This document shows, one piece after another, positions 5,861 to 32,039 of a stretch of 36,399 nt of DNA. The notes below the pieces were generated by a model, which made no database searches, was not told the origin of the DNA, and was given only the letters and a program-made list of their open reading frames with translations. How positions within the stretch are numbered: the stretch's first letter is position 1; every line of letters starts with the position of its first letter. Made by a program: the position numbers and the translations under genes. Source of the DNA: a virus; IMG/VR virus record IMGVR_UViG_3300026321_000009, positions 1-36,399 of that record; one strand, written 5' to 3'.

Positions 5861-6004
5861 ATGGAAGAGAAGACCTATAAAGGTAATGCTAATCGTCCAG
5901 TTGATATGGGCGAGAAGTTTAAGAATGAAGGATGGGAGTACTGTAAGTACCTCATCACTGATCCTCGTAGCGATGCATATTTGAAACGAGAATCGAAGAA
6001 ATAA
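5861..6004 (+). CDS. Small hypothetical protein, 47 aa
   Basis: The frame reads MEEKTYKGNANRPVDMGEKF, contains a compact aromatic core (EGWEYCKYLI) and ends basic (LKRESKK). I do not recognise it. It begins 24 nt after the membrane-protein gene, and its stop overlaps the gp25 start (TAATG at 6002-6006), so it is probably translated with gp25. An ATG at 5854 in another frame gives only eight codons. A small baseplate-assembly helper is conceivable from position only. Confidence 0.65.
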   Translation: MEEKTYKGNANRPVDMGEKFKNEGWEYCKYLITDPRSDAYLKRESKK

Positions 6005-17400: not shown

Positions 17401-20400
17401 CTTCTGGTGCTACGATTACTAGAGGTGATGATGTTATGCGCTTCAAACTCTTAAATGAGCCAGAAGGTGCTGCTGAAATATCTCCTGCTAGTTACTCAAC
17501 AAGCTCTAAGAAAGCAGTTGGTTCTATTAATGCACTTCGTATTGTTAATTCAGGTGGTTTCTATACTAGATTACCTATTGTTTCTAACATTGAATCAACA
17601 AGAAAGATTGAAAGAGTTGACATTAAGACTCCAGGTACTGAGTATGCTGTTGGTGTCTACAATGGTGTCCCTATTGCTGGTGATGGAGAAGGTGGTTTAA
17701 TTTCAATTACAGTTACAGATGGTAGTGACGATGAAGGTGTAACAATACCAGGTCAAATCAGTGCTGTTGCTGTTACTTCCCCAGGTAAGAATTATACGAC
17801 TGCATCTATTGATATTGACTCAATTCCTGGTATTCTTGGTAGTGGACTGAATGGATCTGGAGCAGAATTAGTTGTTGTCATTCCTTCCTCTGGTAGTGGT
17901 GCATCCATCTTTACTAAGGGCACAAGCGTTGGTAAGATTAAGAAACTTAAGAATAATAACTTTGGTTATGATTATCCTCATGACTATACTTTACGTCCTG
18001 AGATTACATTCCCACTTAACTGTCAATTAACTAGCACATCTATACTTGCTAGTATCACTGTTACTGACCCAGGATCTGGATATTCACAAGCACCTGCTGT
18101 TGTAATTACAGGTGGTGGTGGATCTGGAGCACAGGCAGAAGCAACTATTAAGAATGGTAGATTAGATAATATTATCGTTAAGGATCCAGGTGCTGGATAT
18201 TCTTCCACACCAACTATAGAACTTAAGTCATCCTTTAACTATGTTGTTAACCTTGACTTAGGATTACTACAGTTTGCTTTCCCACATGGTATTGCAAACG
18301 GATCAGAAGTAACACTGAATGTAGTTGATACTGGCGATGGTGCTGAGTATCCTCTTGCTGCTGGTGCTACTGGTAGATTGAATTCCTCAACTACTTACTT
18401 TGCCATTGCTGGTACTGCAAACTCCTTGGAGACAGACCAGTTGAAACTGGCAATTACAGCTGCTAACGCTTCTCTAGGAGATGCATTAAGCTTCGTTAAC
18501 GCAGGTACTGGAAGACAACAGGTACTTACTTCATCCTTTGGTGGTGGTGCAACAGCAAACGTTGCTACATCAGTCTTTGATGAAGGTGAATTAGTATATC
18601 AAGGTGATACATTTGCTTCTGCAACTGCTACTGGATATGTTTCTGAAAACAATGGTTGGCAGATTGGACCTAGAATCCTTAAGATTGTTGACTACACTGG
18701 TGATTTCATTGAAGGACAAAAGATAACTGGTGTTATCTCCAAGTCTTCTGGTGTTATCTCTGACCTTAACATTGCTAAGGGTGTCCTAGAAATTGGATCT
18801 ATCACTCAAACTACAGGTCAATTCGTTGATGACGTTGGTAAGCCTTCTGAGATCATTCAAAAGATCCAAGACTCTTACTATTATCAAGACTTCTCATATG
18901 CAGTTAACTCTGCTACTTCCATCTCAGAATGGAAAGATATCTTAATTAGAAATGTCCACCCTGCATCATTTAAGGTGTTTGGTGAATTAAATCTGCAAGA
19001 ATATGGCACAATCCCTAACAAAACGACTGCTTTTGAATTAACTAAGTCAGTTGAATTAGCACAGAGTGCAATTGTACCAAATATTCAAAACTTTGCTCTA
19101 GTTGAGCCTATCTATCAAGAATTTAACAACACTGAGGTATTATTCAGACAGAAGAGACTAACGTCTTCTGAGAATATCTTGACATCTGTTGTACAGAGAA
19201 TTGATAATATTGATCATCTATTTGATGGTGAAAGGACTGCATTCCCACTAACAGTTTCTGGTAGTAACGTTGTTGCAAACGCTAACCAGTTAATGATTGT
19301 ATTGAATGGTATTGCACAGCAACCTAACGTATCCTTTAGTGTCCAGAGTGACAACATCGTATTCGTTGAGCCACCTTCACCTCCTGCTAGTGTTAAGTAT
19401 GCTTCTGTAACTATTACACAGATTGCAACTAAGAAATTCGTCTTTAGTAATCAGAGTGGTATCTATCCAACCGCAGGAATGTATGTAACTGGATCTGCTT
19501 CCAGTGCTAAGTTTAGAGTAACAACTGTTGTTGGTAATGACATCTATGGTTATATCACTGAAGGCACCTTTATTATCGGTGAATTATGTAACGTTAGTGC
19601 TACTGGATTCTCAGCAAACCTAAGCAGTCAAACAGACGTTGTAAACAACGGTCTATTCATGTTTGGTGAGGTTGTTACCAACTTTGAAGGTAACACTGCT
19701 AAGATTGAGGAAATCAACCTAGCAAAAGGTCAAGAAACTCCTCTAGCAAAATTACGTTATACAATTGGTCAAGCAACTACTTCATTTGAAGTAGTACCTA
19801 CAGCAGGAGCTGCTGCACCTGTTGCTGCTGGAACATTCGTTGCTACTAAGAATTATCAGTTTGGATCTGAAATCTTCCTAGTTAACAGTATTACTGATGG
19901 AGCAGAGTCTACAACTCTTGGAGTTACAAGAGCACAACTTGGTACTGCTGCTGATGCACAGTTAGAGAATACTCCATTATACGGCACAGACATTACAATT
20001 ACTAATGCTTTGATCTTGAGTAAGACAACTGGTACTTACCAGTCCACTCCAGGTCTATTTGATATTCAGTTGAATGATATTATCATCGCTGCTAAGTCTG
20101 GTGTTGTTGCTACAGTTGCATCTACAAGTCCTTATCAAGACCCTGTAACTAACGAATTTATTAGTCAGGTCAATATATCTGAAGGATCTTCCTTCTTTGG
20201 TCTACTATTCAACAGAATTACGTCTCAGACTTATCCTAACGTTGTTTTGGATAACATTGCTGAGTCACAAGTAAGTATTGTCGATTTCACTGATAATGTA
20301 ACTGCATTCGACTCTAAATTCCCTGCTAACGAGTTAATTAACAACTACGTTATTAAGACAGAGAATATTAGTGGTACATTCCAAGAGAATGAGTTTATCA

Positions 20401-23400
20401 GAAACTTTAAGATCGACTATGGTAATAATAGCGGCACCTTCTTAGAAGGTGAAGAAGGTTATATCAGAAAACTCACCTTTACAGATAAGCAAGGTGCTGG
20501 ATTCTTTAACCAAGGTAATGTAATTAGGTCTAAGAATTCTAAGGCAGAAGTTATTGGTTACAACCAAGCAAGATCTACTGTCTACCTAGGTAAGATGGCA
20601 AGAGCACTTCCTAGTGGTGCTGACTACTTTACATTCAACTTTAATGGTACTGCACAGATTGATACTGCACAATATAAGTTTGGTGCATCATCACTCTCAC
20701 TACCTTTAGCAACAGACTTCATTGATTGCCCATCTTCTACTGAAATCGCTCTAGGATCTAGCAACTTTACCCTTGAATTATGGGTACGTGCTTCTGCTGG
20801 TTCATTAAGTGGCACTGTTGAGTTAATTGACACAAGAGCATCTAGTGCTAATGAAGTTGCTGGTAGACTTTACCTGAATGCAGGTAAACCAAGATGGAAT
20901 GTTAATAACAGTGATTTAATAACTACAACTACTACTCTAGTTGCTGATACTTGGACACATATTGCCATTGTCAGGACAGGAACTGCTGGTGTTATGTGGA
21001 TCAATGGTGTTTCTGCTGGCACAGGCACAGATAGCACAACTTATGTTGCTAAACCACTTCACATCGGTGCAAGTTATGCTGGTACTGGTGGTATTATAGG
21101 TCATCTTGATGAAATTAGATGGTCTAATAGTGCAAGATATTCAGCAACCTTCGCTGCACCAACTGGAATATTCCAAGGAGACGCTAATACAAAACTACTA
21201 CTTCATTGTGATGGTGCTGACACAGCAACTTATGTTGAGGACTGGTCTGGTACTGGAACTTGGATAGATGGAGATGACTTCAATAATGACGCTATTATTG
21301 CTACTAAGAGGAAGTCAACTGGCAATCTTTCCACACATAGTCTGAATACACAAAGATATCTCGATGCTGCTGATCTCATCTTTAAGAACAAGGACTTACT
21401 TGCTAAGGAAGTTGTATGGCGTTTAGAGCATCAATCACCATATGCACCATTCAGTGTCCTTACTGGATCTGTTAACTGCTCAGATGATGTTAATGACATC
21501 CTCGATGCTTTGATTAGTGACATGAGGAATGGTAGTAACAGTTATCTCTATGATGCTGCTGCCCTTTATGTTGACAGGACTGTAACTCCTATTACTGTTA
21601 ATCATATTGAAACTGAAATTGAAGAGACAATCTGGACACATGAAGAGTTGTCCAAGTTGGCACAACAAGTAATTACTAACCAGAGAATACAAATACTCGG
21701 AGATCATGGATTGACTCAGGTAACTGATTCTTCTATCACTGACTCCACAAACGCCTCACCTTCAACTATCACACCTACAGCAGCAGTTTATGACGCTGTA
21801 ACTGGTGAGATGACATTAACCAAGTCTTCACATGGTTTAACTACTAACATTGCTATAACAGCAACTGGAGCGACTTATGATGCTAACACTGGTATCATGG
21901 TTGTTACTAGCAACAGTCACGGTCTGAATCCTGGCGATAAAGTTAAGTTAGAAGACAATTCAATCACATTTAGTTGTGATATGGATGGTAACAGAAGCGA
22001 CCACTCTTATCCTAGAGCAGATGACCCTGCAAGTGGTAAGTGGTTAGAAGTTGGTGAAGTACAAACAAATACTTTTGAAATATTCGTTGATAAAGCACCG
22101 TTGGTAGGATACAAGCCAACTGCCTCAACATATGATGCAGCGACTGGTTTAATGGCACTAACAATTGGTGACCATAACTTCTCTGCTGGACAGACTATTA
22201 AGTTGGCAAACAATTCGCTCAACTTTACTTGTGCGATGGACGATAACAACTCTATCAAGTCCTACCCAAGATCAACTGACAATGTATATGATGAAGCGAT
22301 TCCTATCAAGCATGAAGGTACACCATATACTCCAACTGGAGCAACATATACACCTGTAACTGGTGAGATGGTTGTTACCATCATTGGTCATACCATTGCC
22401 GTTAACGATCAAGTTAAACTTGAAGAAGGTGCTGTAAGTTTCAGTTGTGCCAAGGATAATCACGCTAGTGATCATTCATATCCTTTAGCATCTAGCACAG
22501 TTGCTAATACTTGGTTAACTGTTTCTGCTGTTACTGCTAACACCCTTACAATTAACGTTGGTAAGTCTCCTGACACTTCAACTCATACTTACTTGAGATG
22601 GAATGCAAACAGTCTTGTTAAGAAAGATACTACAATTGTCCTTGATGTAGGTAAAGCACCTCTCATCACTCACGATGTTTCTACTGCTGCTTATACACCT
22701 GCTACAGGTGTTATGGATATCACTCTTGGTACCCACAACTTCTTAGTTGGTGATAGTATTAAGTTAGCTGATGGATCATTAACATTCTCTTGTAACCCTG
22801 GATCTGGCGTTGCAAACGGATCTTATCCAAGAACAGATATTATAACTCATACTCCAACTACTGCTGCTTATGTCCCTGCAACAGGTGTAATTACAATTAC
22901 TGTTGCTAACCACGGTATGCTAGATGGTGAGTGGGTTAAACTAGCAGATGGTGCTTTGACATTCAAGTGTGATGCTGATAGTCAACTTACTAACCATGCT
23001 TATCCAAGAGCTACTGACCCAATTAGCGGTAGATGGATACAGGTTTCTGGTGTAACCACAAACACATTTGATATACAAGTATTAGACTCTGCTCCATCAT
23101 CCAATACATCTACTCACGTATTTGTATCTGCTACATCAGGTGGAGTTTCACAGAAGAAAGACAGATCTTACGATTCACCGATTGCAATCACAGGTGTTGG
23201 TACTGCAAACCTAACTGCTGCTTCTGGCACAACATACAACCCATCAACAGGTGTCCTTTCAATTACTTCTGCAAGTCATGGATTGACTGGTGCTACATCA
23301 CATACTCCAACTCTTGCTTCATATGCACCTGCTACTGGACTGTTAACGATTACTCTTGCAAGTCATGGATTTGCTAACGGTGACAGGATCCAAATTCAAG

Positions 23401-26400
23401 CAAATGCATTAACTATGACATGTGCTAAGGATAGTGACGGATCATTCCACACATATCCTCGCTCATCTGATCCTGTATCTGAGAAGTGGTTACCAATTAC
23501 TTTGGTTGATGCTAATTCATTCACAGTTGACGTTAATAAGTCTCCTGATCTTTCTGCTCATACCTTTATCTCTTGGGCATCTAATGGAATCAAGAGAGCT
23601 AGAGATATGGTCAAGTTTGATGCTGACTCATTAACCTTTAGTTGTGCTCTTGCTGGTGGCAACCATACATATCCTCGTTTAACTGATCCTATTGCTTCAC
23701 AGTGGGTACCTGTTACTAACGTAGCAACAAACACATTTGAAGTTAACACAGGACCATCTACTTACACTGGTACTCATACATGGGTATCTGCAACTTCTAA
23801 CGGAATCAAGAAGCAGACAGGTGTAATTACAGTTAATGTTGGTATATCCTCTAACACTGCTGCTCATACATTCGTATCTTCTACTGCTGGTGCAGTTAGG
23901 GCAGGTGGAGTTTATGCTCACACATTTAAGAATGCTAATAATACATACACACCATCTACAGCGGCATACGTCCCTGCAACTGGTGTTTTAACACTAACCA
24001 TTGCTGGTCATGGATTTGCTAATGGTGAGTGGATTAAGATTGCTGACAGTGGACTAACATTCACTTGTGCTCAGGATAGCAACGCAACTAACCATACATA
24101 TCCTCGTGCTGCTGGTGCAACATTCACAGCAACAACTGGTACTGCATACAACCCATCGACAGGTATATTAAGCATTACCACAACTGCTGCTCATAACCTA
24201 GCAAATGGTGATGAGATTAAAATTGCTGACAACTCATTGACATTCACATGTGCAATGGACGGCAATACAGTTAATAAGACTTATCCAAGACCATCTGATC
24301 CTATCAGTGCTAAGTGGATTAAGGTAGAAAACGTAGCTTCAACAACGTTTGATGTCCAGATATTAGACATTACTCCTTCTTCTAACACTTCTACCCATGT
24401 ATGGGTATCTGCTACAGCAGGTGGCATACAAACTAGAGACCCTGCTTCTGGTAAGTGGTTGAAGATCTCTAACGTTGCTACAAATACATTTGATGTTAAT
24501 GTAAGCGTATCTTCTAATACTTCCACTCACGCATTTGTAAGTGCTATCTCTGGTTGTGTAAGTAGAGCAGTCATCATGGCTGGTGGAGCACATTCACATA
24601 CTTGGAAGTCTGCTAAGACTAATGGTATTCACAAACAAGGATCATTCGTATCTATTGATAAGGATGCACTGAAATTCAAGTGTGCTTTAGACGAATATCT
24701 AACAGATCATACCTATCCTGCATTAACCTCTACTGTATACAATAAAGTATTACCAGTTGAGAAGTATACTACTAATACATTCACAGTTAATGTTGGTATT
24801 TCGACTCAAGACGATAATTATATTCCTTATACTCCAACTGCTGCTACCTATACAGCATCAACAGGTGCTTTGGTACTAGACATTGGTACTCATAGTCTTT
24901 CTACAAGTGATTTTGTAGAGATAGACGATAATTCATTGACATTTACATGTGCAATGGATAGCAACCAGTCTCAGAAGACATACCCTCGCACATTCCATGA
25001 CACTAAGTCCTCTGGTAAGAAGCTTGCGGTTACTGCTATTGGTTCAACATCACACACTCCAAGTTTTGCAGCATACCTTCCTACAACTGGTGTCTTAACA
25101 ATCACTTTAGATTCTCATGGATTTACTGCTGGTGAGAAGGTCAAGTTTGACGACAGTGCATTAACTTTCAGTTGTGCTAAGGATAGTAATGCTACTAACC
25201 ATGCATATCCAAGAGCAACAGACCCTGCAAGTGGTAAGTGGTTGACAATCAGTAATGTAACTGTAACCACATTTGATGTCCAAATTGGTGTAACTACTGA
25301 GTTATCTGCACACAACTTCCAATCCGCTGTTACTGGTGGAATGAAGAAGCAGAATGGTCAGATTACAGTTAACGTTGGTGCTGCTGGTACAAACGCACAA
25401 TTTACTCCATCTGCTGCTACTTACAATGCAGTAACAGGTGATATGACACTGACTATTGGTCAGCATGGCATACAGGTTGGATCAAACATTGTAATTGCTA
25501 ATGATTCATTGACATTCAGTTGCACAATGGGATCTGGCAATAAGACTTATCCTCGCTCCACAGACCCATTTGGCGGTAGTAAGTCTATTCGTGTAGACGA
25601 AGTTGGTTATACTTCTAAGACTGCTACTGGAGCAGCATATACACCTGGTACAGGTGCTATGACAATCACATCTGCCTCTCATGGATTCTCCAATAACGAT
25701 TATATTCAGATCGTTGAAGGATCTCTAACAATGAGATGTGCTCGTGATGGTAATACAACAGATCATTCATATCCTAGAAAGACCGATCCTTACTATGGTA
25801 AGTGGTTAAAGGTTTCTAACGTAGCAACAAACACATTTGATGTTAACGTTGGAATCTCTCCAGACGCTACAACTCACACATTCGTTTCTGCTGCCACTGA
25901 TGGTATTAGAAAGCAGAATGGTGTAATCACAGTTAACGTTGGTAAATCCCCTGCTATTGGATTTGACGTTTCTGCTGCTACTTACGATCCTGCTACAGGA
26001 CTTCTAGTTGCAACAATCGGTGAGCATAGTTTCACTACTACTCAGAAGGTTAGACTTGCAAACAACTCTTTCGTATTCAAGTGTGCTCAAAACTCTTCTA
26101 CTACTCACACATATCCACGTGCAAACGGTCAAGGTGGTGCATCTGCTGACGATCCAGCATACGATGATGCAGTAACGATCACTGCTGTAACGTCATCAAC
26201 AATTACTTTAAACGTTGGTACTTCTTCCAACACAACTGCTCACACATTCCAGAACGCTAATAACACATATACTGCTACTGGAGCAACCTATACACCATCA
26301 ACAGGTGTAATGACTATTACATCTAATGGTCATGGATTCCTTAACGGTGAGCGCATTAAGATTGCAGATAATTCATTAACATTCACTTGTGCTAAGGATG

Positions 26401-29400
26401 GTAACGCTACTAACCACACATACCCAAGATCAAGTGATCCTATCAGTGGTAAGTGGTTAACAATCTCCAATAAGACAACTAACACATTCGATGTTAACGT
26501 TGGTGATTCTACAAACTATTCTACTCACGCATTTGTCTCTGCTGTAGCAGGTGGCATTAAGAGAGCAGTCATCCACGCTGGTGGTGAGTATGCTCATACA
26601 TTCGTAAGTGCTTCTTCTAACGCTGTTTCTTACACTCCAGACTCTACACATACATTCGTAAGTGCTAAGGGTGGTGCTGTTAAGCAATGGTTAGGCACTC
26701 ATTCATTCGTCTCTGCTATAGCCGACTGCATTAAGATCATCGGATATAACAACAGTGATTGCATAGACGTACAATCTAGTCTTGATAACTTACTTTCAAT
26801 TCTTATTGATACTCTGGATGAAGCAAATCAAGCAGTTGCTGTAGACCATCTAGCAACAATTACAAAACTAACTCCTGCACATGAATATGTTGGTGCAACC
26901 GCTGACGCATATCTACAAATACCATTTACTATTGACGATGTTAATACAGGTAACAAACTTGCTTATACAAGAAGAGTTGACGAAACAACTAGAGATAGAT
27001 TCAGAGATGCTGCTAACCTAATTCGCCTCAACCGTGGTCCTATCGTTGATAAGGCTTCTGCTGACATGCTTACTCGTTATCCAGAGTTGGTACTAGGAAT
27101 GCCTAGAAACGCTGATGCTAGTGGTGCTGGTACCTTACGTTGTAAGACTGACCTTGGAATCATCCTAGACGGTGTAGCAAATGACATCGAAGTTGGTGGT
27201 AACTACAATACACTAATTGCAGTTAAGAATTACCTTGGTAACAATGACGAAATTCAGCATGTTAGATTGCAGTTACTTCAATCTCTATATGCTCATAACA
27301 GACTTGGACTTTATGCCAAGCAAGCAGTCTCAGGTGACCTAGACGATACCAATACTGATTCAGTTATTATTGGTGACTGGGGTATTACTAACGATACTGC
27401 TAACGTCCAATTCACTCCATCTGCTGGTACATACGATCCAGCAACAGGTGAGATGACACTGACTATCGGTAGTCATACACTTGATCTTGGAAGAAAGGTT
27501 ACAATAGCAGATAACTCCTTATCATGGAGTTGCACATATGGATCTGCTACTCACACATTCGTTGGCACAGCAACTAATGCTCTTACCTTCGGATCTACTC
27601 AGAAGACTGTAACTGCTGCAACTTATAATCATGCAACAGGTATTATAGAATTAACAATCGGATCTCACTCATACACAACCAGTGATACATTCACGATTGC
27701 TACTAATTCACTAACATTCACTTGTGACGCTGACAGTCACGCAACACAGCATACCTATCCTAGAGCAGGAGATCCTGCTTATGGAGCAACTATGACGATC
27801 ACTGCTGTAAGTGGAACAACCGTTTCAGCTAACGTTGGTGCTGTTTCTGGTGGTCAGACTAAGACCTATCCTCGTGCAACTGACTACGCAGGATCAGGCA
27901 AGAGACTTACAATCACTGCTAAGACTTCTACAACTATTACATTTAATATGTTGTCAGCAAATGGTGGTGTAGCATCTACTAACTTATCTCCACACACATT
28001 CGTTTCTGCGACTGCTAACGCTGTAGTTGCTCCTGGCGATTGTGTTAACGTTAAGGACGCAATTGATTCTCTAACAGAATTAGCGAATGAGACACTTGCT
28101 CCTAATGGAGACAGATATAGAGATGCAGGTGATCTTCTACACTTTAACAAAGATTACATCGCTGAAGAAGCAGTTGGTATATTAGACGCTGACTTCTCAT
28201 ACACTCTAAACAACATTCTTTATCAATCCTTCCAGTACCCATCAGGTGCTACTGGTAGAGATACATGTAAGAAAGATATTGGATTGTTACTTGATAGTGT
28301 TATCAGTGACTTACAGACTGGTGGTAACAGCAATACAATTGCTGCAACTGAAAATTATATCGCAGTCTCTGGTGGTATCAAGCAAGTTGAAGATCAACTA
28401 CTTTCAACCATCCACGCATTCAAGCAAGTTAAGAAACTTGGTAAACTTGCAATAATCAACAACCTTTATAACCAAGGCATAGCAAACCTAACTGGTGACC
28501 AGTATCCTGCTATGTGGACAACTAAGACCGCATATAGAGATACTACAATCACTGACTCTCAGGGTGATACTGCTTATCTCAGCGATGATTGCACAAATGC
28601 AGTCTACGCATTTGAGAATCTGTTGGACATTATTATTGATACTTTGACTCCATCAGGTGATGCTGGTAGATCTTCTGCTAGAATGATCCTTAACAATAAG
28701 AATTACTATGACCAAGAATTAGAGAACCTAGTTAACAGTCAGTGGGGATCAGGTGCATGGTCAACAGATATCAATACATTCCTAGAGACAACAGTTAATG
28801 ACGTAATACATGACCTTGCGATTACAGATACAGAGAAATATGACACTGCTAGAAACATCATTCTTACTAACGTAATCGGTGAATTTGTAGTTGGTGAAAC
28901 TGTAACTTCATCTGGTGGTGGATATGCGACTGTCAAGGAATACATCCTCGATAGCAACACACTCGTCATTGGATCTACAACAGGACAAGTTTGGGCAGCA
29001 GTAGATGATATAACTGGTGCTCTTGGTACAACTGCTACAGTTGTTACTGTTGGACCTATCTACGATTACTACACAACTGTATCTAACGTCCAATCCCTTG
29101 CTACCACTAGGATCATAACAACAGGTATTGCTGATCAGGTCGCAGGTATTAACCTCTTCACTAACCCTGAAGACTACACTGCTAACTGGACTGCAAATGC
29201 TTGCACCATTAGTGGTAACGTAACTACTGACCCAGATGATCAAATACTTGCTGAGAAGCTTGTAGTTGATAGCAGCACGGGTGAGCATACAATAACAAGA
29301 AATTATAGTCTTACTGCATACGACACATTTGATGATTCTTCTATCAAGTGGGATGACGGTAATAACAAGTTTGATGAAGGTGCTACAACATCAGATCAGA

Positions 29401-32039
29401 CATTCACATTCTCTGCATTCATTAAGAAGGCAGAATACGATAAGATCAGATTCGCAATGATTCTGGATGATGGTACATCAGCAGAGCAAAATGCATTCTT
29501 CGATCTTGACTTAACTAACGCTTCATTTGGTAGCGTATTCACTCCACAACAAGGTATCACTGCTAACGCATACGGATCAGTACCTGTTGGTGGTGGATGG
29601 ATTAGAGCATACATTCAGATAACACTCTCTTATGGTTTCTCTACTCTAACCAATCAAATCATTATTAGAAACACTGCTGGATCAACTAATTACACTGGAG
29701 ATTCTACAAGTGGCATATACGTCTGGGGTGCAAAACTAACTAAGTCTGCACTTGACCCATACGTCTCTGCATACGGCACAACATTCTATGCTGACAATGA
29801 CTTCAACATCAAGAACTACATTCTTGATACAGTAGAAACACAGATGCAGGGTGCACTAGAGCAAAATCTAGCATCACCTTCTCCTGGTGCAACATTCACA
29901 GCATACACAAATAGCACTCTCGCTAAGGATTACGATCCTCTCGCTATACAGAGAGTGGTAAGATATCTCATTAACATGGTTAGGCAGCAGCTTAAGAACA
30001 ACGCTCACTACACCGATGTTACTAACTACAGTGCAATTGCCACACCTGCTAAGACATACGGCACGAGAAATATTCCAATTCCTCTCGGTGGTGGTATTAA
30101 TAACGCTGATAACTTCTTTGGTGCTACTTCAGGTGCATACGCAGAAGTTGAAAACATCACTGCTAACGAAGCAGAGTTAGTCCAGATATACACAAGATTT
30201 AGAATCGACGGCACTATCACAGATGGTCCATTCACAATGAATGAGGCAATCCAGAAGCAAGGTAACTCTGCTATCACAGGTATTGTTTACGGATCATTCG
30301 AGGATGCAAACTTCAAGTATCTTGACGTTAAGATTACTGCTGGTACATTCGCAGTCCTAGACACTATCGTGGGTGCTACAAACTCAACCACATGTCAAAT
30401 CAATGCTCTTGAAACTAGAATGCACTTCATCGATAAGAAGGGTGCCTTCGATGTTTCAATCGGATTTGAGGGATATAAGTCAGGTGCAACTGCTGATGTT
30501 AACGCAAACGTCACTGCTGAAGCTGCTGTCCTTACAAACACTGGTGGTAAGTTGGTTGTTGACACTGAGACACTAATAGGCACATTCGAGAAGACTGCTG
30601 TTGTTTACGCAGAAAACTCCAGACAATTCCTAGAAGTTTCTAAGTTTGGTGGTTTAGATGTTGCTATCGGTAACAGAATTGTATCAAACGGATACACAAG
30701 AATCGGTATTAGCGTCCTAACAGGTCTTAACAACTTCACCGTCGGTAACAGACTTTACAAGGTTGTATCGGGTGTCCAAGATACATCAAATTATGCGATC
30801 ATCACATCTGTTGATCTAGGCAACAACTTCCTCTATATTGCCCCTGTATTAGGCACGATGACCAATGGTGACATCGTAGGTGATTACGGCGCAGGTGAGT
30901 CCTTCCCAGTGGGTTACGCAAGCATCACAACTAAGGTTGTTACTGCTGGAGCCGGTGCTGCTCTTGTCCAAGACATTGAGACAGTTGGTGTTAACAAGCG
31001 AATCTACATGAGTGATATCGTAGGTACCTTCGATACTAAGGACGCAATCAAGTCACTTAACGCATATGAGGCAGTTGTAGTTAGCAAGCAAGATATTAAG
31101 GCTCGCGTGAAGAGATCCTTCAGAGGATTCGATGGTGTCCAGACACAATTTAAACTCACGCAGAATAATGGTACAGCATACTTACCTGATCCTGAAGGTC
31201 ATATGCTCATATTTGTTAATGGTATTCTACAACCTCCAGGCGCATCTAACGCATACACAGCATTCTCAGACACAATACAATTCACAGAGGCACCTACGCT
31301 AGGGTCTGCATTTACAGGATTCTATGTTGGTAAGTTGAGGCAGTTGGATGATATCTCATTCGACTTCGACTCCTTGAGACAATCATTCAACCTTAAGCGT
31401 AACGGAGTATTCTACTCCTTGACACTGACAGAAGGTGTCCAGTCTACGGTTATACGTCCAGAAAACAACATCATATGCTCACTCAACGGTGTCATACAGG
31501 AACCTGGAATCGGATTTGAGATTGTTGGTTCACGAATAATCTTCTCTGAAATACCTCGTGTTGGATCTACATTCGTTGCATTCTCCTACGTGGGTAGTGA
31601 AGCAGACGTTGACGCTGCTGAAGTTGTCCCACCAATCGAGCCAGGCGACTTTATTGACATCCAAGGTGAGACTTCAGACAGAGAGGTCGCTGTTATTGAA
31701 TCTTCTAACTCCTTAATCACCTTTGACTATCTCGGATCAGTCTTTGGTAAGGACGCAGTTGGCGCAGCAACAGTCACAAGCGGCACCATTGATACAGTCC
31801 AAGTCACTGCTGTTGGATCTGGTTACACAACTAGACCGACTGTAAGGGTTGACTCGATCTCTGGATTTGACGCACAAATCAAGGCATTAATTGGTGTTGG
31901 TGAATGTGTAATTTCCGCACAAGGATCAGGATATAGTAACCCTGGCATATCAGTTGATACTTCCGTACCTGACGACTGGACTGCACCAGATCTAAGTCAA
32001 TATGGTGAAGAAGTAATTGACCCTGAGATACTTCCATAA
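8481..32039 (+). CDS. Giant mosaic tail/baseplate protein, 7852 aa
   Basis: One unbroken frame of 23.6 kb, roughly 0.8 MDa, rich in Thr, Ser, Gly, Ala and Val. AAGG (8473-8476) precedes the ATG. Modules by residue: baseplate-type head (1-315); GxGY repeats (about 297-610, 1119-1347, 3020-3250); cyanophage core IKHIKTFYSTKGTEF (about 650-725); YHYH domain (1375-1546); EF-hand-like loop (1603-1614); probable beta-propeller (1818-2212); LamG folds (2224-2430, 4048-4237); about 18 Cys-bearing repeats (4432-6085, 6307-6517) with alpha-helical modules between; jelly-roll-like domain (about 6890-7105); C-terminal NG repeats and two GSGY units (7540-7852). It follows gp6 by 6 nt, where other cyanophages also keep a large structural gene and T4 has gene 7. 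It is probably an outer wedge or adhesion fibre that contacts host surface glycans. Function is inferred; the reading frame is direct. Confidence 0.9.
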   Translation: MTTSSKVSQAIAKQTPEFISDGYPLFDKFLEYYYKSQEKTGFGQNIVNNFLQYLDIDKLDVGILGGATKVVEGCDTDDTTIVVENVDQFLTENGSLLIDDEVIFYEKAVTSPSIAFSPGISYEQVKLKWITLANLVAQFDGNAKSFPLTSQDAPVAPPSAQHLIVSVYNEVQVPGVDFTIDGTNIVFSVAPRTRLPSDDTTETSIIYQNGFIENPIVALDNISGSFGDSKKTFLVTNSSVGYSPIVDEYIYAIYDNKVLIPRTDFTFDGTYITLGFTPLAGRRLDLFSIEAPIPSFGSGAIGFSRVDADGQLDSVIANATGKNYKFEYPPKITVKSTQGGRDASVKPLINGIQSTTLLTGGAGYSTTNPPTVTIVPPTKTGAIVPTVKATVTNGAVSAITIESSGSGYTFTPRLTFTQPGGAILGAPTIASGSFASAPAITNGGQGYTTAPAIYVDEPTGLNGIKGSFQTVLTDGVITSITVLNAGQGYETTPRIAVVDPVGAQVLETKVDGDGRITDIEMLSGGSGYEDIPSVYIVDERTSSPGSGATAVASIFNGSITDINITAFGTGYSAANPPTIFIQPPPHATASVDIGLGEVTGFQVINKGAGYEKCRFTGCARAASGIKEYTEEGNAVFSGDTVAAAHLAAAEVKCLDALFVKRLLDKYTEQYLPDVPQLDYESIDVRSAIKHIKTFYSTKGTEFSVAYLFKLLYGENVSVSYPKDQITKPSAATWSINTILRATLVSGKPADIQDALIQQVADIADPNIKAASALVENFISIKTSTTDIYELVLSEETIQGTFIVPYKTKLAEPLTATSDIITVDSTIGWPERNGEIVIGDKETVRYKEKSLNQFIECTRDETDAQIWDSATEVKSNFVVYLNKGTLQEVTMNVVGIVDANQTTLTDTGSYYLPGDKLTVSKLGGTSITPQLTTWLYNVKKLIEVTTITFGGVNDQSATVTCSNTHGLLVGDQVTVYGANPILYNGTFLVTSRDSATVFQYQLPQPATVIPQGNILISVDLNKGKSTNSAITTAIGPYTTNVQNTFFNTSYVYVASTGIPNYDIGPFPGSALLPGNQRKLNRFGLAPTTISTKTSIVPGPIGTWVNGVSIWSYKSKSTKTFGAVTSVDISNAGIEYDAASPPAMTISGGGGSGATATVTVDGGISAIEVTAGGSGYTSSPLVSIVGGGGTGAAATAIITKGVVSRVLINQSGTGYTSQPEITIVGGAGTGATATASVRGPIKTVNITAGGASYTSKPTVKLSSGSGAVAQAIVNNGRIISIAIISAGSGYTTAPTVSVQGEGFGAVAKATIDVDGENAGKVTGITITNKGIGYIQGTTIINLTSIGSSATFAANVFEWTYNLQETSTFDTAKGAVFEGFNVQYGGEYAHLSNPQKLRYILGDNLYESTSGTILEQETQLAHSPIIGWAFDGNPIYGPYGYSDPTNQSSQIARLNTSYSLKTNIVFDAVSNPYPVRTDGPLLTEESAGKFIEDYEYVFGSGDLDQYNGRFCKTPEFSAGRYCYFVTIDAAEAGNPKFPYIMGPSYNSVVDTWNLVDDAVQQNIPTGVVRYRDPYENVDIDVERTPNASTNALTMENGDILLFDAEDENRDGIITQDEIDDPEQMYEEAPLQLFDYFPKVKFDSKVDIEVDTITKFEDASVTGFTIENSGKSYQVDDRLIFDNTDTDGSGVSARISRIKGETVEAYTYETLDGINYGILTSTDPHNLITGDTVFVEYAPTMDNTNKTFIVRQYKGIEEVTVNTVGSGYNTDIPPTVTIDSDSGTGGSIDAVVSTVGSIESFKINNSGSGYTENPRVILSHPQIYKKCDYYASLISNNGFVKISDVAVNLKKEVFICGHTKDASGNVVALIAKLSATGVKEWEKTLESTAPAANPTHCEFNKIIVDGNDIWVSGISKPNIPVLTAYNPDIILCKYIQADNGLSAGLALQRAYAGISGSTRADNVTCLAKLSSTPDRFIFGGYTNTNSANPFDAFLAVVDTAGSFIVKRKLATTSGNEKITDIKIGTDGAVYFTMETSTSSSSNDINVSFGKATVGTNAITVDWIKEISNTLYSFQDSSLCFDEFNEFYVTATCRLKSDDVTKDSFWVGKFRNDGAVVWNKRYVAPARDIQVVGKTTIDIFGELNVAYSHTYTQGDGKKIVSSAKIKYDGTMLKHTSNELRIATNTTNTTEGFTVHALDTDESGDLHLFGQTQHNRNEFTFDFAANEQTDITGHYTLTSTSTNNSITYADNMAKIYGYNPAGSNSSWVSSHLSITNLQLGTKLADDWTLEFFIYKNSSESQTLSQGVQTLCGIGGAQDTTGGLWLGYDTSSGKLQLVVTNNSTALTSGTPTESSQTTMYANNTWQTVGLSKSGDVFKVYINGTQVITGTLANTALGNKTLYFGNQIGFGSGATDFSAGKQGQFYIDNIRLRNRALVPTVPSDITTLPPVATFGLTFDWVDDAWFVGQLQKYDYIDFNAIGIKVDRNSDAARLGTLTTFVNTQLSVTRTAITPVVGSTLTIGNVGLSLGAAGFQSLDFDDANITYTEATETATYANDIWSSRTGTVPSPGSTKVSATAVVKDRYFFKVTDTSKIDNIQELTINQSFNFTVGAKLMLKDGSTFVNSGYITSVDNDNNKVYVAVNNNTWTNDTATGQLSTERFDEQDTLGIRGPIPNDLNEINGYLFAEVLNTTPGTFNIDLDKWSVAGTYNASGGQDLDSFAKFKPWVATDYTVRIDEVASGSPYIVGSVVEVAASAVSFNAAYSTIQITGLTAVLKITLTANLTKILQVSSVSNSDQVYVITSGHHYLEVDEMVYVDGNPSQTYNSLVYDEYDGAFAVSAVISVKEFTYKLPQAAVTDPATTPGNVSIYVKSPTLKMFYGHQYLFDLSHSSLVGGNLSFAKDSLYKLEYSFNSIERIGTPGVTGQGVPTPSVKLKIDENVVTNISYYFDPSRTGSTSPVIEGSYLDVVDSPYKGTFEITSTSGATITRGDDVMRFKLLNEPEGAAEISPASYSTSSKKAVGSINALRIVNSGGFYTRLPIVSNIESTRKIERVDIKTPGTEYAVGVYNGVPIAGDGEGGLISITVTDGSDDEGVTIPGQISAVAVTSPGKNYTTASIDIDSIPGILGSGLNGSGAELVVVIPSSGSGASIFTKGTSVGKIKKLKNNNFGYDYPHDYTLRPEITFPLNCQLTSTSILASITVTDPGSGYSQAPAVVITGGGGSGAQAEATIKNGRLDNIIVKDPGAGYSSTPTIELKSSFNYVVNLDLGLLQFAFPHGIANGSEVTLNVVDTGDGAEYPLAAGATGRLNSSTTYFAIAGTANSLETDQLKLAITAANASLGDALSFVNAGTGRQQVLTSSFGGGATANVATSVFDEGELVYQGDTFASATATGYVSENNGWQIGPRILKIVDYTGDFIEGQKITGVISKSSGVISDLNIAKGVLEIGSITQTTGQFVDDVGKPSEIIQKIQDSYYYQDFSYAVNSATSISEWKDILIRNVHPASFKVFGELNLQEYGTIPNKTTAFELTKSVELAQSAIVPNIQNFALVEPIYQEFNNTEVLFRQKRLTSSENILTSVVQRIDNIDHLFDGERTAFPLTVSGSNVVANANQLMIVLNGIAQQPNVSFSVQSDNIVFVEPPSPPASVKYASVTITQIATKKFVFSNQSGIYPTAGMYVTGSASSAKFRVTTVVGNDIYGYITEGTFIIGELCNVSATGFSANLSSQTDVVNNGLFMFGEVVTNFEGNTAKIEEINLAKGQETPLAKLRYTIGQATTSFEVVPTAGAAAPVAAGTFVATKNYQFGSEIFLVNSITDGAESTTLGVTRAQLGTAADAQLENTPLYGTDITITNALILSKTTGTYQSTPGLFDIQLNDIIIAAKSGVVATVASTSPYQDPVTNEFISQVNISEGSSFFGLLFNRITSQTYPNVVLDNIAESQVSIVDFTDNVTAFDSKFPANELINNYVIKTENISGTFQENEFIRNFKIDYGNNSGTFLEGEEGYIRKLTFTDKQGAGFFNQGNVIRSKNSKAEVIGYNQARSTVYLGKMARALPSGADYFTFNFNGTAQIDTAQYKFGASSLSLPLATDFIDCPSSTEIALGSSNFTLELWVRASAGSLSGTVELIDTRASSANEVAGRLYLNAGKPRWNVNNSDLITTTTTLVADTWTHIAIVRTGTAGVMWINGVSAGTGTDSTTYVAKPLHIGASYAGTGGIIGHLDEIRWSNSARYSATFAAPTGIFQGDANTKLLLHCDGADTATYVEDWSGTGTWIDGDDFNNDAIIATKRKSTGNLSTHSLNTQRYLDAADLIFKNKDLLAKEVVWRLEHQSPYAPFSVLTGSVNCSDDVNDILDALISDMRNGSNSYLYDAAALYVDRTVTPITVNHIETEIEETIWTHEELSKLAQQVITNQRIQILGDHGLTQVTDSSITDSTNASPSTITPTAAVYDAVTGEMTLTKSSHGLTTNIAITATGATYDANTGIMVVTSNSHGLNPGDKVKLEDNSITFSCDMDGNRSDHSYPRADDPASGKWLEVGEVQTNTFEIFVDKAPLVGYKPTASTYDAATGLMALTIGDHNFSAGQTIKLANNSLNFTCAMDDNNSIKSYPRSTDNVYDEAIPIKHEGTPYTPTGATYTPVTGEMVVTIIGHTIAVNDQVKLEEGAVSFSCAKDNHASDHSYPLASSTVANTWLTVSAVTANTLTINVGKSPDTSTHTYLRWNANSLVKKDTTIVLDVGKAPLITHDVSTAAYTPATGVMDITLGTHNFLVGDSIKLADGSLTFSCNPGSGVANGSYPRTDIITHTPTTAAYVPATGVITITVANHGMLDGEWVKLADGALTFKCDADSQLTNHAYPRATDPISGRWIQVSGVTTNTFDIQVLDSAPSSNTSTHVFVSATSGGVSQKKDRSYDSPIAITGVGTANLTAASGTTYNPSTGVLSITSASHGLTGATSHTPTLASYAPATGLLTITLASHGFANGDRIQIQANALTMTCAKDSDGSFHTYPRSSDPVSEKWLPITLVDANSFTVDVNKSPDLSAHTFISWASNGIKRARDMVKFDADSLTFSCALAGGNHTYPRLTDPIASQWVPVTNVATNTFEVNTGPSTYTGTHTWVSATSNGIKKQTGVITVNVGISSNTAAHTFVSSTAGAVRAGGVYAHTFKNANNTYTPSTAAYVPATGVLTLTIAGHGFANGEWIKIADSGLTFTCAQDSNATNHTYPRAAGATFTATTGTAYNPSTGILSITTTAAHNLANGDEIKIADNSLTFTCAMDGNTVNKTYPRPSDPISAKWIKVENVASTTFDVQILDITPSSNTSTHVWVSATAGGIQTRDPASGKWLKISNVATNTFDVNVSVSSNTSTHAFVSAISGCVSRAVIMAGGAHSHTWKSAKTNGIHKQGSFVSIDKDALKFKCALDEYLTDHTYPALTSTVYNKVLPVEKYTTNTFTVNVGISTQDDNYIPYTPTAATYTASTGALVLDIGTHSLSTSDFVEIDDNSLTFTCAMDSNQSQKTYPRTFHDTKSSGKKLAVTAIGSTSHTPSFAAYLPTTGVLTITLDSHGFTAGEKVKFDDSALTFSCAKDSNATNHAYPRATDPASGKWLTISNVTVTTFDVQIGVTTELSAHNFQSAVTGGMKKQNGQITVNVGAAGTNAQFTPSAATYNAVTGDMTLTIGQHGIQVGSNIVIANDSLTFSCTMGSGNKTYPRSTDPFGGSKSIRVDEVGYTSKTATGAAYTPGTGAMTITSASHGFSNNDYIQIVEGSLTMRCARDGNTTDHSYPRKTDPYYGKWLKVSNVATNTFDVNVGISPDATTHTFVSAATDGIRKQNGVITVNVGKSPAIGFDVSAATYDPATGLLVATIGEHSFTTTQKVRLANNSFVFKCAQNSSTTHTYPRANGQGGASADDPAYDDAVTITAVTSSTITLNVGTSSNTTAHTFQNANNTYTATGATYTPSTGVMTITSNGHGFLNGERIKIADNSLTFTCAKDGNATNHTYPRSSDPISGKWLTISNKTTNTFDVNVGDSTNYSTHAFVSAVAGGIKRAVIHAGGEYAHTFVSASSNAVSYTPDSTHTFVSAKGGAVKQWLGTHSFVSAIADCIKIIGYNNSDCIDVQSSLDNLLSILIDTLDEANQAVAVDHLATITKLTPAHEYVGATADAYLQIPFTIDDVNTGNKLAYTRRVDETTRDRFRDAANLIRLNRGPIVDKASADMLTRYPELVLGMPRNADASGAGTLRCKTDLGIILDGVANDIEVGGNYNTLIAVKNYLGNNDEIQHVRLQLLQSLYAHNRLGLYAKQAVSGDLDDTNTDSVIIGDWGITNDTANVQFTPSAGTYDPATGEMTLTIGSHTLDLGRKVTIADNSLSWSCTYGSATHTFVGTATNALTFGSTQKTVTAATYNHATGIIELTIGSHSYTTSDTFTIATNSLTFTCDADSHATQHTYPRAGDPAYGATMTITAVSGTTVSANVGAVSGGQTKTYPRATDYAGSGKRLTITAKTSTTITFNMLSANGGVASTNLSPHTFVSATANAVVAPGDCVNVKDAIDSLTELANETLAPNGDRYRDAGDLLHFNKDYIAEEAVGILDADFSYTLNNILYQSFQYPSGATGRDTCKKDIGLLLDSVISDLQTGGNSNTIAATENYIAVSGGIKQVEDQLLSTIHAFKQVKKLGKLAIINNLYNQGIANLTGDQYPAMWTTKTAYRDTTITDSQGDTAYLSDDCTNAVYAFENLLDIIIDTLTPSGDAGRSSARMILNNKNYYDQELENLVNSQWGSGAWSTDINTFLETTVNDVIHDLAITDTEKYDTARNIILTNVIGEFVVGETVTSSGGGYATVKEYILDSNTLVIGSTTGQVWAAVDDITGALGTTATVVTVGPIYDYYTTVSNVQSLATTRIITTGIADQVAGINLFTNPEDYTANWTANACTISGNVTTDPDDQILAEKLVVDSSTGEHTITRNYSLTAYDTFDDSSIKWDDGNNKFDEGATTSDQTFTFSAFIKKAEYDKIRFAMILDDGTSAEQNAFFDLDLTNASFGSVFTPQQGITANAYGSVPVGGGWIRAYIQITLSYGFSTLTNQIIIRNTAGSTNYTGDSTSGIYVWGAKLTKSALDPYVSAYGTTFYADNDFNIKNYILDTVETQMQGALEQNLASPSPGATFTAYTNSTLAKDYDPLAIQRVVRYLINMVRQQLKNNAHYTDVTNYSAIATPAKTYGTRNIPIPLGGGINNADNFFGATSGAYAEVENITANEAELVQIYTRFRIDGTITDGPFTMNEAIQKQGNSAITGIVYGSFEDANFKYLDVKITAGTFAVLDTIVGATNSTTCQINALETRMHFIDKKGAFDVSIGFEGYKSGATADVNANVTAEAAVLTNTGGKLVVDTETLIGTFEKTAVVYAENSRQFLEVSKFGGLDVAIGNRIVSNGYTRIGISVLTGLNNFTVGNRLYKVVSGVQDTSNYAIITSVDLGNNFLYIAPVLGTMTNGDIVGDYGAGESFPVGYASITTKVVTAGAGAALVQDIETVGVNKRIYMSDIVGTFDTKDAIKSLNAYEAVVVSKQDIKARVKRSFRGFDGVQTQFKLTQNNGTAYLPDPEGHMLIFVNGILQPPGASNAYTAFSDTIQFTEAPTLGSAFTGFYVGKLRQLDDISFDFDSLRQSFNLKRNGVFYSLTLTEGVQSTVIRPENNIICSLNGVIQEPGIGFEIVGSRIIFSEIPRVGSTFVAFSYVGSEADVDAAEVVPPIEPGDFIDIQGETSDREVAVIESSNSLITFDYLGSVFGKDAVGAATVTSGTIDTVQVTAVGSGYTTRPTVRVDSISGFDAQIKALIGVGECVISAQGSGYSNPGISVDTSVPDDWTAPDLSQYGEEVIDPEILP
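8887..9357 (+). repeat. Two N-terminal 'F-NG-P' beta modules of the giant protein
   Basis: Two tandem units of about 75 aa have the form F-x-L-T...LIVxVxNxVxxPxxDFxxDGTxIxFxxxP: QFDGNAKSFPLTSQ with VPGVDFTIDGTNIVFS, then SFGDSKKTFLVTNSS with IPRTDFTFDGTYITLG. The same module recurs at 19200-19425 and twice at 31111-31590, so both ends and the middle share one building block. Confidence 0.65.
9370..10309 (+). repeat. GxGY beta-repeat block 1
   Basis: About eight units of GxGY-[TS]-xx-P-x-[VI]-x-[VI]..., including GAGYSTTNPP, GSGYTFTP, GQGYTTAP, GQGYETTP, GSGYEDIP and GTGYSAANPP. The alternating Gly-rich turns and short strands suggest a long beta-solenoid or stalk. Confidence 0.7.
10420..10650 (+). 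other. Conserved cyanophage tail-protein core (IKHIKTFYSTKGTE)
   Basis: This is a helical segment: KCLDALFVKRLLDKYTEQYL, then an acidic turn, then IKHIKTFYSTKGTEFSVAYL and FKLLYGENV. The pattern [ST]-I-[KR]-x-I-[KR]-x-F-Y-x-x-K-G-T-E is one I associate with large structural proteins encoded after gp6 in T4-like cyanophages. It probably anchors the giant protein to the baseplate. Confidence 0.5.
11836..12520 (+). repeat. GxGY beta-repeat block 2
   Basis: This is the most regular GxGY block: GSGYTSSP, GTGYTSQP, GASYTSKP, GSGYTTAP and GIGYIQG, each separated by a [SG]GGGGTGATA-type strand. Units are about 30-35 aa. DNA identity between units is visibly high, so the block is a plausible recombination target. 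Confidence 0.75.
12603..13119 (+). other. YHYH domain within the giant protein
   Basis: Diagnostic segments are IGWAFDGNPIYGPYGYSDP and, further on, GRFCKTPEFSAGRYCYFVTI leading to PYIMGPSYNSV. This is the YHYH domain of unknown function, frequent in marine bacteria and cyanophages. The canonical first His is replaced here (SPIIGWAFDG). A close paralogue with a large insertion lies in the last gene. Confidence 0.75.
13287..13322 (+). other. EF-hand-like calcium-binding loop (residues 1603-1614)
   Basis: DENRDGIITQDE fits the 12-residue EF-hand/dockerin loop exactly: Asp1, Asn3, Asp5, Gly6, Ile8 and Glu12. It sits in an acidic linker rich in Asp and Glu just after the YHYH domain. Ca2+ binding in seawater is plausible but unproven. 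Confidence 0.55.
13933..15115 (+). other. Probable beta-propeller domain (SBBP/Kelch-like)
   Basis: Residues about 1818-2212 repeat a blade-like pattern of the type DVAVNLKKEVFICGHT...ALIAKLSATGVKEWEKT: a 'datVyvtG' strand, then 'lakl...G...W.k'. Further blades include FIFGGYTNTNS, DIKIGTDGAVYFTME, FWVGKFRNDGAVVWNKRY and LDTDESGDLHLFGQT. About six blades can be counted by eye. Propellers of this type usually bind proteins or glycans. Confidence 0.55.
15150..15770 (+). other. LamG/concanavalin-like lectin domain 1
   Basis: Residues about 2224-2430 contain LADDWTLEFFIYKNSS, LWLGYDTSSGKLQLVV, NNTWQTVGLSKSGDVFKVYI and GQFYIDNIRLRNRAL. This is the strand order of a LamG/ConA-like jelly roll (W-T-x-E-F/W...W-x-x-V...V-Y-x-N-G...x-I-D-x-[IV]-R). 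It is a candidate host-glycan binder. Confidence 0.75.
17540..18230 (+). repeat. GxGY beta-repeat block 3
   Basis: Degenerate units (GGFYTRLP, GTEYAVG, GKNYTTAS) are followed by two regular ones (GSGYSQAP, GAGYSSTP) flanking VVITGGGGSGAQAEATI. It is the same module as blocks 1 and 2 and as the repeats in the genes at 1510 and 33292. Confidence 0.65.
19200..19425 (+). repeat. Internal 'F-NG-P' beta module of the giant protein
   Basis: HLFDGERTAFPLTVSG, LMIVLNGIAQQPNVSFSV and DNIVFVEPPSPP form the same unit as the pairs at both ends of the protein. Confidence 0.6.
20622..21190 (+). other. LamG/concanavalin-like lectin domain 2
   Basis: Residues about 4048-4237 run FGASSLSLPLATDFIDCPSS, NFTLELWVRASAGS, TWTHIAIVRTGTAGVMWING and GHLDEIRWSNSARYSATF. 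This is a textbook LamG-type pattern and clearer than domain 1. Confidence 0.85.
21353..21705 (+). repeat. Alpha-helical module 1
   Basis: RYLDAADLIFKNKDLLAKEV, then NCSDDVNDILDALISDMRNG and a long C-terminal helix. It is the first copy of a helical unit of about 110 aa that returns at 26752-27352, 28024-28470 and, shortened, 28576-28875. It contrasts with the all-beta surroundings. Confidence 0.6.
21775..26735 (+). repeat. Array of about 16 Cys-bearing repeats of about 100 aa
   Basis: Residues 4432-6085. A full unit has three blocks. A: Y-x-P-[AS]-T-G-V-[ML]-T-I-T...HGF-x-N-G-[DE]. B: I-K-I-A-D-N-S-L-T-F-[TS]-C-A-x-D-x-N...[HK]-x-Y-P-R-x-x-D-P. C: GKWL-x-I-S-N-V-x-T-N-T-F-D-V-N-V-G...HTFVSA-x-x-GGI. 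Sixteen B blocks can be counted, each with one Cys after LTF (for example Cys4499 and Cys5970). Units 7 and 10 lack A, and several others show partial blocks. This looks like an extended fibre grown by unequal recombination. The repeat fold is not one I can name. Confidence 0.85.
26752..27352 (+). repeat. Alpha-helical module 2
   Basis: DCIDVQSSLDNLLSILIDTL leads into RDAANLIRLNRGPIVDKASA and TDLGIILDGVANDIEVGGN. It breaks the Cys-repeat array and is homologous to modules 1, 3 and 4. Confidence 0.65.
27400..28023 (+). repeat. Second, shorter Cys-repeat block
   Basis: One fused unit (NSLSWSCTYGSATHTFVGT) lacks the YPR and GKWL parts. It is followed by one normal unit (NSLTFTCDADSHATQHTYPR) and a trailing B-C fragment (TKTYPRATDYAGSGKRLT). 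The family is the same as at 21775-26735. Confidence 0.75.
28024..28470 (+). repeat. Alpha-helical module 3
   Basis: GDCVNVKDAIDSLTELANET, RYRDAGDLLHFNKDYIAEEA and KKDIGLLLDSVISDLQTGGN give the clearest full-length copy of the helical module. Confidence 0.65.
28576..28875 (+). repeat. Alpha-helical module 4 (shortened)
   Basis: DDCTNAVYAFENLLDIIIDT and GRSSARMILNNKNYYDQELE match the front of modules 2 and 3. The back half (DINTFLETTVNDVIHDLAIT) is shorter and more diverged. Confidence 0.55.
29149..29810 (+). other. Jelly-roll/CBM-like domain of the giant protein
   Basis: INLFTNPEDYTANWTANACT, TFTFSAFIKKAEYDKIRF, GGGWIRAYIQITLSYGF and SGIYVWGAKLTKSALDPYV follow the pattern 'NLL.....W......G..YTFSawvK...W.Ri......iyiwGaQle.g'. 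This carbohydrate-binding-like jelly roll is common in phage tail fibres. Confidence 0.7.
31111..31590 (+). repeat. Two C-terminal 'F-NG-P' beta modules
   Basis: GFDGVQTQFKLTQNNG with MLIFVNGILQPPG and TIQFTEAPTLGS, then DFDSLRQSFNLKRNG with ICSLNGVIQEPGIGFEIVG and IIFSEIPRVGS. They repeat the unit seen twice at the N terminus. Confidence 0.7.

Follow-up and report, generated by a model that had tools for sequence, protein, structure and literature searches.

The giant ORF and its repeats

The window considered here covers positions 1 to 36,399 of the IMG/VR virus record IMGVR_UViG_3300026321_000009, and its DNA neighbours are all marine cyanomyoviruses. Within it lies a giant open reading frame (ORF) of 7,852 amino acids (aa) that carries a Cys-bearing repeat of about 100 aa (Table 1). 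Very probably, this repeat forms one tree of 16 β-barrel copies inserted into one another, in a giant baseplate protein encoded at the gp7 position of a marine cyanomyovirus. The original prediction had placed about 18 copies at 21775-28023; these coordinates fall within the giant ORF and do contain the repeat, together with alpha-helical-looking segments (aa 6086-6311) that lie outside it.

The gene order is gp25 (6004-6417), gp6 (6420-8471), the giant ORF and a gp9-like gene (32062-33285); gp25 and gp6 are recognised by Pfam match and the gp9-like gene by its gp9/10 N-domain. This is the gp25-gp6-gp7-(gp8)-gp9 synteny of the T4 gp7 family, with gp8 further downstream in relatives. Because of this gene position, and because the homologue in P-SSM4 carries the annotation gp7, baseplate wedge initiator, the product is placed in the baseplate. 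The PHROG families phrog_701 and phrog_18802 match with E=0 over three stretches (aa 1-2173, the following 2258 residues and the final 1338), and the Pfam family Baseplate_wedge (PF23786) matches with an E of 3.8e-6 over 47 positions only, its 27.0 bits lying exactly at the cut-off of 27. The giant protein of S-P4 is annotated under the homologue class T4-GC969, which mass spectrometry found in virions of S-SM1 (PMC3037559). By homology, the product of the giant ORF is a gp7-position baseplate or virion structural protein, its virion location being drawn from these homologues.

The giant ORF contains 18 openings of the type Y-x-P-x-T-G, 18 YPR-type and 18 HTFVSA-type motifs, and 17 Cys strands of the form [LIV]x[FMW]xC plus one FVFKC; the motifs of the original prediction are real. 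Sixteen units lie in the main block and two in a second small pair, and the mean identity among the paralogous units is 43%. As had also been proposed, this is a phage structural repeat without a described function: no significant Pfam match was obtained for the repeat region or for unit 16, and a PDB sequence search with the repeat gave no match. The unit family is present in 324 public cyanophage records, and one scan of bacterial genomes, with peptide patterns only, returned no relatives of the repeat.

Nested order of the repeat pieces

A profile of 101 positions was built from seven uninterrupted units, and the first parse was a Viterbi search that charged one uniform cost for a jump between any two profile positions, without assuming nesting. 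By this parse, it became apparent that units halt at a few positions, that whole units intervene, and that a later piece then continues the unit left open last from the point of its break, the breakpoints being complementary. A second parse used a deeper profile (78 non-redundant units) and a pushdown (nested) grammar. The block resolves into 30 pieces, all 30 of which are used in one balanced bracket string of 16 units with a depth of six, namely 1(a:2(d:3(c:4, d:5(b:6, c:7(a:8))), 9(b:10)), d:11(c:12, d:13(c:14, d:15, 16))). Eight units are contiguous (4, 6, 8, 10, 12, 14, 15 and 16) and eight are split into two or three parts (1, 2, 3, 5, 7, 9, 11 and 13); the parsing script arrives at nine split units because of a 10-residue loop insert in unit 15. 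The tandem array of three-block A-B-C units that had been envisaged does not hold, as 8 of the 16 units are broken off by entire units and taken up again further on at the point of interruption. When rejoined, 16 of the 16 units are of full or nearly full length, each with a Cys at position 41 and a His at position 87, in agreement with the proposed single Cys at a constant position of each unit.

Whole units are inserted at four fixed loops of the host units: site a, after HGL (profile ~25); site b, after YPRA (~55); site c, in the turn of the TISNV/TFDVNV hairpin (~69); and site d, after VGKSP (~81). The root, unit 1, is divided into three parts that span 1,655 residues. None of 10,000 trials with shuffled resuming pieces reached the observed score, and a reversed order of resumption scored 2615 versus 3248 observed. 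A linear tandem model, which was also tried, accounts for no more than 7 contiguous pieces and roughly half the profile score. Nor was there support for inserts arising in their parent by simple local duplication: parents are 43% identical to their own inserted child and 43% identical to other units.

Table 1. Features of the giant ORF and of its repeat units, with positions in the window
Feature	Position	Strand	Basis
Giant ORF, 7852 aa, gp7-position baseplate/virion structural protein	8481..32039	+	phrog_701, phrog_18802 E=0; gp25-gp6 / gp9-like flanks
Conserved upstream flank, alpha-helical-looking domain, aa 4244-4430	21210..21770	+	39-81% identity in relatives; directly abuts root unit
Nested block, one tree of 16 FCCH-like units, aa 4431-6085	21771..26735	+	Viterbi and nested parse
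Unit 1 (root) part 1, profile 1-27, interrupted at site a	21771..21848	+	nested parse
Unit 1 (root) part 2, profile 27-82, interrupted at site d	24639..24806	+	nested parse
Unit 1 (root) part 3, profile 84-98, closes whole tree	26691..26735	+	nested parse
Unit 2 part 1, in unit 1 site a; interrupted at site d	21858..22100	+	nested parse
Unit 2 part 2, HTWKSA closer	24591..24638	+	nested parse
Unit 3 part 1, interrupted at site c	22116..22319	+	nested parse
Unit 3 part 2, interrupted at site d	22626..22661	+	nested parse
Unit 3 part 3, short HTFKNA closer	23910..23936	+	nested parse
Unit 4, contiguous, in unit 3 site c	22326..22625	+	nested parse
Unit 5 part 1, in unit 3 site d; interrupted at site b	22671..22838	+	nested parse
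Unit 5 part 2, interrupted at site c	23163..23210	+	nested parse; long strand 174-184 in model
Unit 5 part 3	23817..23900	+	nested parse; long strand 382-392 in model
Unit 6, contiguous, in unit 5 site b	22848..23156	+	nested parse
Unit 7 part 1, in unit 5 site c; interrupted at site a	23214..23291	+	nested parse, model
Unit 7 part 2	23601..23816	+	nested parse, model
Unit 8, contiguous, in unit 7 site a; deepest, level 6	23301..23600	+	nested parse, model, fold comparison
Unit 9 part 1, in unit 2 site d; interrupted at site b	23946..24116	+	nested parse, alignment
Unit 9 part 2	24435..24569	+	nested parse, alignment
Unit 10, contiguous, in unit 9 site b; site empty in L073, L065, L037, L036	24129..24434	+	alignment
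Unit 11 part 1, in unit 1 site d; interrupted at site c	24828..25046	+	nested parse
Unit 11 part 2, interrupted at site d	25356..25385	+	nested parse
Unit 11 part 3	26640..26684	+	nested parse
Unit 12, contiguous, in unit 11 site c	25053..25352	+	nested parse
Unit 13 part 1, in unit 11 site d; interrupted at site c	25401..25604	+	nested parse
Unit 13 part 2, interrupted at site d	25920..25952	+	nested parse
Unit 13 part 3	26586..26630	+	nested parse
Unit 14, contiguous, in unit 13 site c	25617..25916	+	nested parse
Unit 15, contiguous with ~10-aa loop insert, in unit 13 site d	25965..26261	+	nested parse
Unit 16, contiguous, in unit 13 site d	26268..26567	+	nested parse
Conserved downstream flank, alpha-helical-looking domain, aa 6086-6311	26736..27413	+	47-89% identity in relatives
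Second small pair, units 17 (shortened) and 18 (duplicated YPR-hairpin), aa 6312-6516	27414..28028	+	profile parse

The order was compared among 45 non-redundant relatives, comprising cultured phages and IMG/VR contigs (L numbers denote relatives). Breaks and resumptions in these relatives concentrate at four profile locations (~25/27, ~55/57, ~69/73 and ~81/85), and the nested grammar scores above shuffles in most of them. In cultured phages, the parse uses 21 of 23 pieces for P-SSM4 (11 units, depth 5), 16 of 17 for S-P4 (depth 5) and 7 of 8 for P-RSM1 (depth 4); the nested pattern is therefore not an assembly artefact of the window. Metagenomic relatives reach a depth of 7-8 with most pieces used (L019, 18/19; L021, 26/28), and the depths of 9-10 obtained for L055, L105 and L101 stem from noisier parses. 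Filled and empty states of the same site can be seen side by side. In the window and in L011, unit 10 sits between YPRA and DPASGKW of unit 9, and in L073, L065, L037 and L036 this site b is empty and the unit uninterrupted, with 48-63% identity to the joined flanks. Site a of unit 7 is filled by unit 8 in the window and in L073, and a plain unit stands there in L031 and L078. These cases were checked by alignment; when pairs of highly similar units that differ in insertion state were sought automatically, the output consisted of parse artefacts.

The number of units between the two conserved flanks (Table 1) varies widely. It is zero in ACG-2014d and one in S-RIM2, Syn33, S-RIM8, ACG-2014a, ACG-2014b, S-CAM22 and a few more; P-RSM1 and metaG-MbCM1 have four units and S-P4 has eight. 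L021 has 14, many relatives have 15-17 (16 in the window and in L011-L015), and L016-L018, L061 and L086 have 20-21. The blocks of nearly all relatives are a single tree beneath one root unit that spans the block, and bracket balance is kept over the full span of the root in the window and over up to ~2,240 residues in relatives. This series probably reflects growth from inside one ancestral unit via repeated self-insertion, and we infer that gain by insertion, rather than loss, set its direction.

These results bear on the possibility that a tandem array was shuffled and truncated by unequal recombination, leaving partial units as debris in an order without structural meaning. Repeats in general recombine readily, and the units are paralogous, with the moderate mutual identity given above. 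However, debris would not leave last-in-first-out complementary breakpoints such as those of the 30 pieces, nor four break sites fixed across the 45 relatives, nor an invariant His87 in closers remote from their Cys41, nor a single root that spans the block at 1, 4, 8 and 14-21 units. It can also be argued that in-register crossover between ancestor and descendant units would leave unclosed halves, and the balanced order in cultured phages already speaks against such an origin, which is highly improbable.

Outside the main block, unit 17 lacks the YPR/GKW middle, its LSWSC strand leading straight into HTFVG, and the YPR...TITFN hairpin of unit 18 is duplicated. At the position of these two units, L011 carries a complete unit enclosed at site d of another, split one. 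Related alpha-helical-looking, Cys-bearing domains (21210-21770, 26736-27413 and 28032-28760) alternate with the barrel units; the first and third are 29% identical, and none has a Pfam match. In the cultured cyanophage P-RSM6 (L005), the gene measures 25.7 kb (~8,570 codons); at least 16 units were parsed in it, and it has several separate nested blocks.

Predicted fold and conserved residues

An AlphaFold2 model of the pair formed by units 7 and 8, for which 23 natural pairs of the same architecture were available, has a predicted local distance difference test score (pLDDT) of 92.4 and a predicted template modelling score (pTM) of 0.84. In this model the outer, split unit 7 shows nine strands that correspond to those of the inner unit 8. 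The subtree of unit 5 (units 5-8, sites a, b and c; 418 residues) was modelled from eight sequences only, with a pLDDT of 85.9 and a pTM of 0.71, and the two halves of the site-c hairpin of unit 5, ~200 residues apart, are predicted as long strands (Table 1). A separate and unnamed viral protein model in BFVD aligns over the whole unit 7/8 pair with a template modelling score (TM) of 0.92.

The order could also be nested in sequence while the pieces complete barrels with neighbouring units or with units of other chains, by swapping between wedge copies, which would give a cross-linked fibre or ring. Baseplate proteins are multimers. Homologous adjacent domains are described in a review as prone to swapping (PMC6863430). 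On the other hand, both single-chain models close with high confidence, and the independent viral model aligns over the pair as a whole, which makes swapping unlikely.

With Z of 7-8.4, the contiguous units resemble barrels of ubiquitin E1 (FCCH), of phage endosialidases and of phage tail proteins. Superposition with the E1 FCCH and endosialidase barrels gives Z 7.0-8.4 and a root mean square deviation (rmsd) of 2.1-2.9 over 74-83 residues (Z 7.0-8.4, rmsd 2.5-2.9 and 74-80 residues for FCCH alone), values of which a Z of ~8 is not decisive. Among the BFVD matches are phage proteins whose annotation names an FCCH or endosialidase-barrel domain; no FCCH sequence profile was matched in Pfam by the whole region or by unit 16. 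The models lend moderate support to a known small-barrel fold of the FCCH/endosialidase type, although the moderate Z may reflect merely a common barrel arrangement. No fold had been recognised in the original prediction; the predicted unit moderately resembles these barrels (Z 7.5-8.4).

Among 489 non-redundant units from relatives, C41 (488/488 scored), P53 and H87 (291/291 scored) are invariant, and H22 (461/470), Y52 (484/487), R54 (480/488) and D57 (474/480) nearly so; the units were gathered with a profile that itself bears the conserved residues, so these figures are biased towards conservation. At the level of sequence, the near-absolute conservation of H22, C41, R54, D57 and H87 across diverged units is unusual for a purely structural repeat, and suggests a buried or metal-binding cluster inside each unit, which may also be active in some other way. 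Because C41 is conserved together with H87, H22 and D57, it would more likely belong to an intra-unit C/H/H/D cluster, structural or metal-binding, than to a disulfide.

The original prediction had proposed an extended linear adhesion fibre, in which the single Cys would enter inter-unit or inter-subunit disulfides. The invariance of one Cys per unit would suit such a fibre. However, the units are nested and branching rather than linear, and the residues conserved with the lone Cys point to a role within the unit. T4-like tails, moreover, assemble in the reducing cytoplasm. Such a disulfide-linked fibre is accordingly very unlikely; the inter-unit disulfides find no support, and an intra-unit site fits the invariant residues at least equally.

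Several points weigh against a single tree of self-inserted barrels. The site-d closers (HTFVSA) are alike, and 5 of 13 closures are assigned by order only. The tolerance for break and resume positions is loose, and a limit of 8 positions lowers the score of the window from 3248 to 3108. A few short relatives do not exceed shuffles, some parses are imperfect (e.g., 0.83 for L023 and 0.81 for L007), and L069 has two roots. The window itself is a metagenomic fragment. As to the fold, closure of the outer barrels is judged from model confidence and predicted strands, not from contacts between the halves, and the matching to known folds covers contiguous units, not outer barrels alone.

Known systems and significance

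Nested insertion as such is already known from Si3 of the cyanobacterial RNA polymerase β'2 subunit, the crystal structure of which contains 8 sandwich-barrel hybrid motifs (SBHMs), 4 of them discontinuous (PMC10802570). A survey presents a six-level recursive insertion in Si3 of Prochlorococcus rpoC2 as a showcase of complexity (PMC13114784). In Si3 as in the phage protein, a small β domain is repeatedly inserted into its own copies, so that hosts become discontinuous, in the phage protein as judged by sequence and models. Si3 differs in that the SBHM family lies in a cellular enzyme, in the trigger loop of RpoC2, whereas the present units belong to a phage virion protein; it has up to 8 copies, compared with 16 here and 20-21 in relatives. 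The cyanophage locus furthermore varies from 0 to about 8 levels between phages, with fixed loops of which filled and empty alleles are visible. A Foldseek comparison of the unit with Si3 (8emb_F) gave a probability of 0.06 and a TM of 0.11, a weak match that does not show that the folds differ. The phage case stands apart by its larger number of copies, its variable depth at one locus and its visible intermediates. In the open-licence papers searched, no literature on nested domains in phage baseplate or tail proteins was found.

By sequence, the giant protein belongs to PHROG 701 / 18802 / 5342 (giant cyanophage virion structural / tail fiber); their descriptions give no function or architecture, and the nested order is absent from them. 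Four-loop self-insertion and the C41/H22/H87/D57 signature are features of the cyanophage family, and set it apart from ubiquitin E1 FCCH and the endosialidase barrel. T4 gp7, of about 1,030 aa, resembles the giant ORF in gene position (gp25-gp6-X-gp9) and in the annotation of the P-SSM4 homologue, but is far from its 7,852 aa and lacks the nested block. A heme oxygenase gene, a cyanophage auxiliary metabolic gene, stands among the baseplate genes (4964-5635; PF01126, E 1.8e-68). The 96-base tRNA-Ile(tat) called by ARAGORN at 16550-16645, inside the giant ORF, is probably a false positive.

In the arrangement considered most probable, that of one self-inserted tree, new copies would have been inserted whole into the four surface loops of existing copies. 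Since entry and exit of an insert would lie side by side, the host barrel could still close from its separated parts, and the polypeptide would fold as a branched, bracket-like assembly. The product would be branched because inserts leave through different loops of the barrel and several hosts bear two inserts. Its branches may project as a dendritic appendage at the periphery of the baseplate, multiplying the surfaces for host contact. The giant ORF also contains two LamG/concanavalin-like lectin domains (PF13385; window 15000-21773). YHYH domains, like numerous GSGYTSxPxVxIxGGGGTGA repeats, occur both in the giant ORF (8481-14999) and in the next large ORF (33292-36399). The LamG-type and YHYH domains of the same chain would fit a surface-exposed, possibly host-contacting appendage; the chances of an adhesive role are about even. 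A bolder proposal, tentative and rather less probable than not, is that of an actively growing self-nesting module, whose copies enter four preferred loops to build branched "dendrimer" virion proteins in a pattern that varies among phages at one locus, tuning host contact. Ordinary recombination in register would upset the balance of the brackets, so that the self-nesting may depend on an insertion mechanism that is dedicated or biased.

These findings imply that one domain can become elaborate through the insertion of its own copies into one another, and that intermediates with 0, 1, 4, 8 and 14-21 units are kept in related, partly cultured phages. The growth of multidomain proteins by recursive insertion thereby becomes directly testable, as regards the order of insertion, the preferred loops and the folding of distant halves. 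A further warning is that linear domain annotation misreads self-nested proteins. The branched fold, if correct, would give phages that infect Synechococcus and Prochlorococcus a virion architecture that is out of the ordinary.

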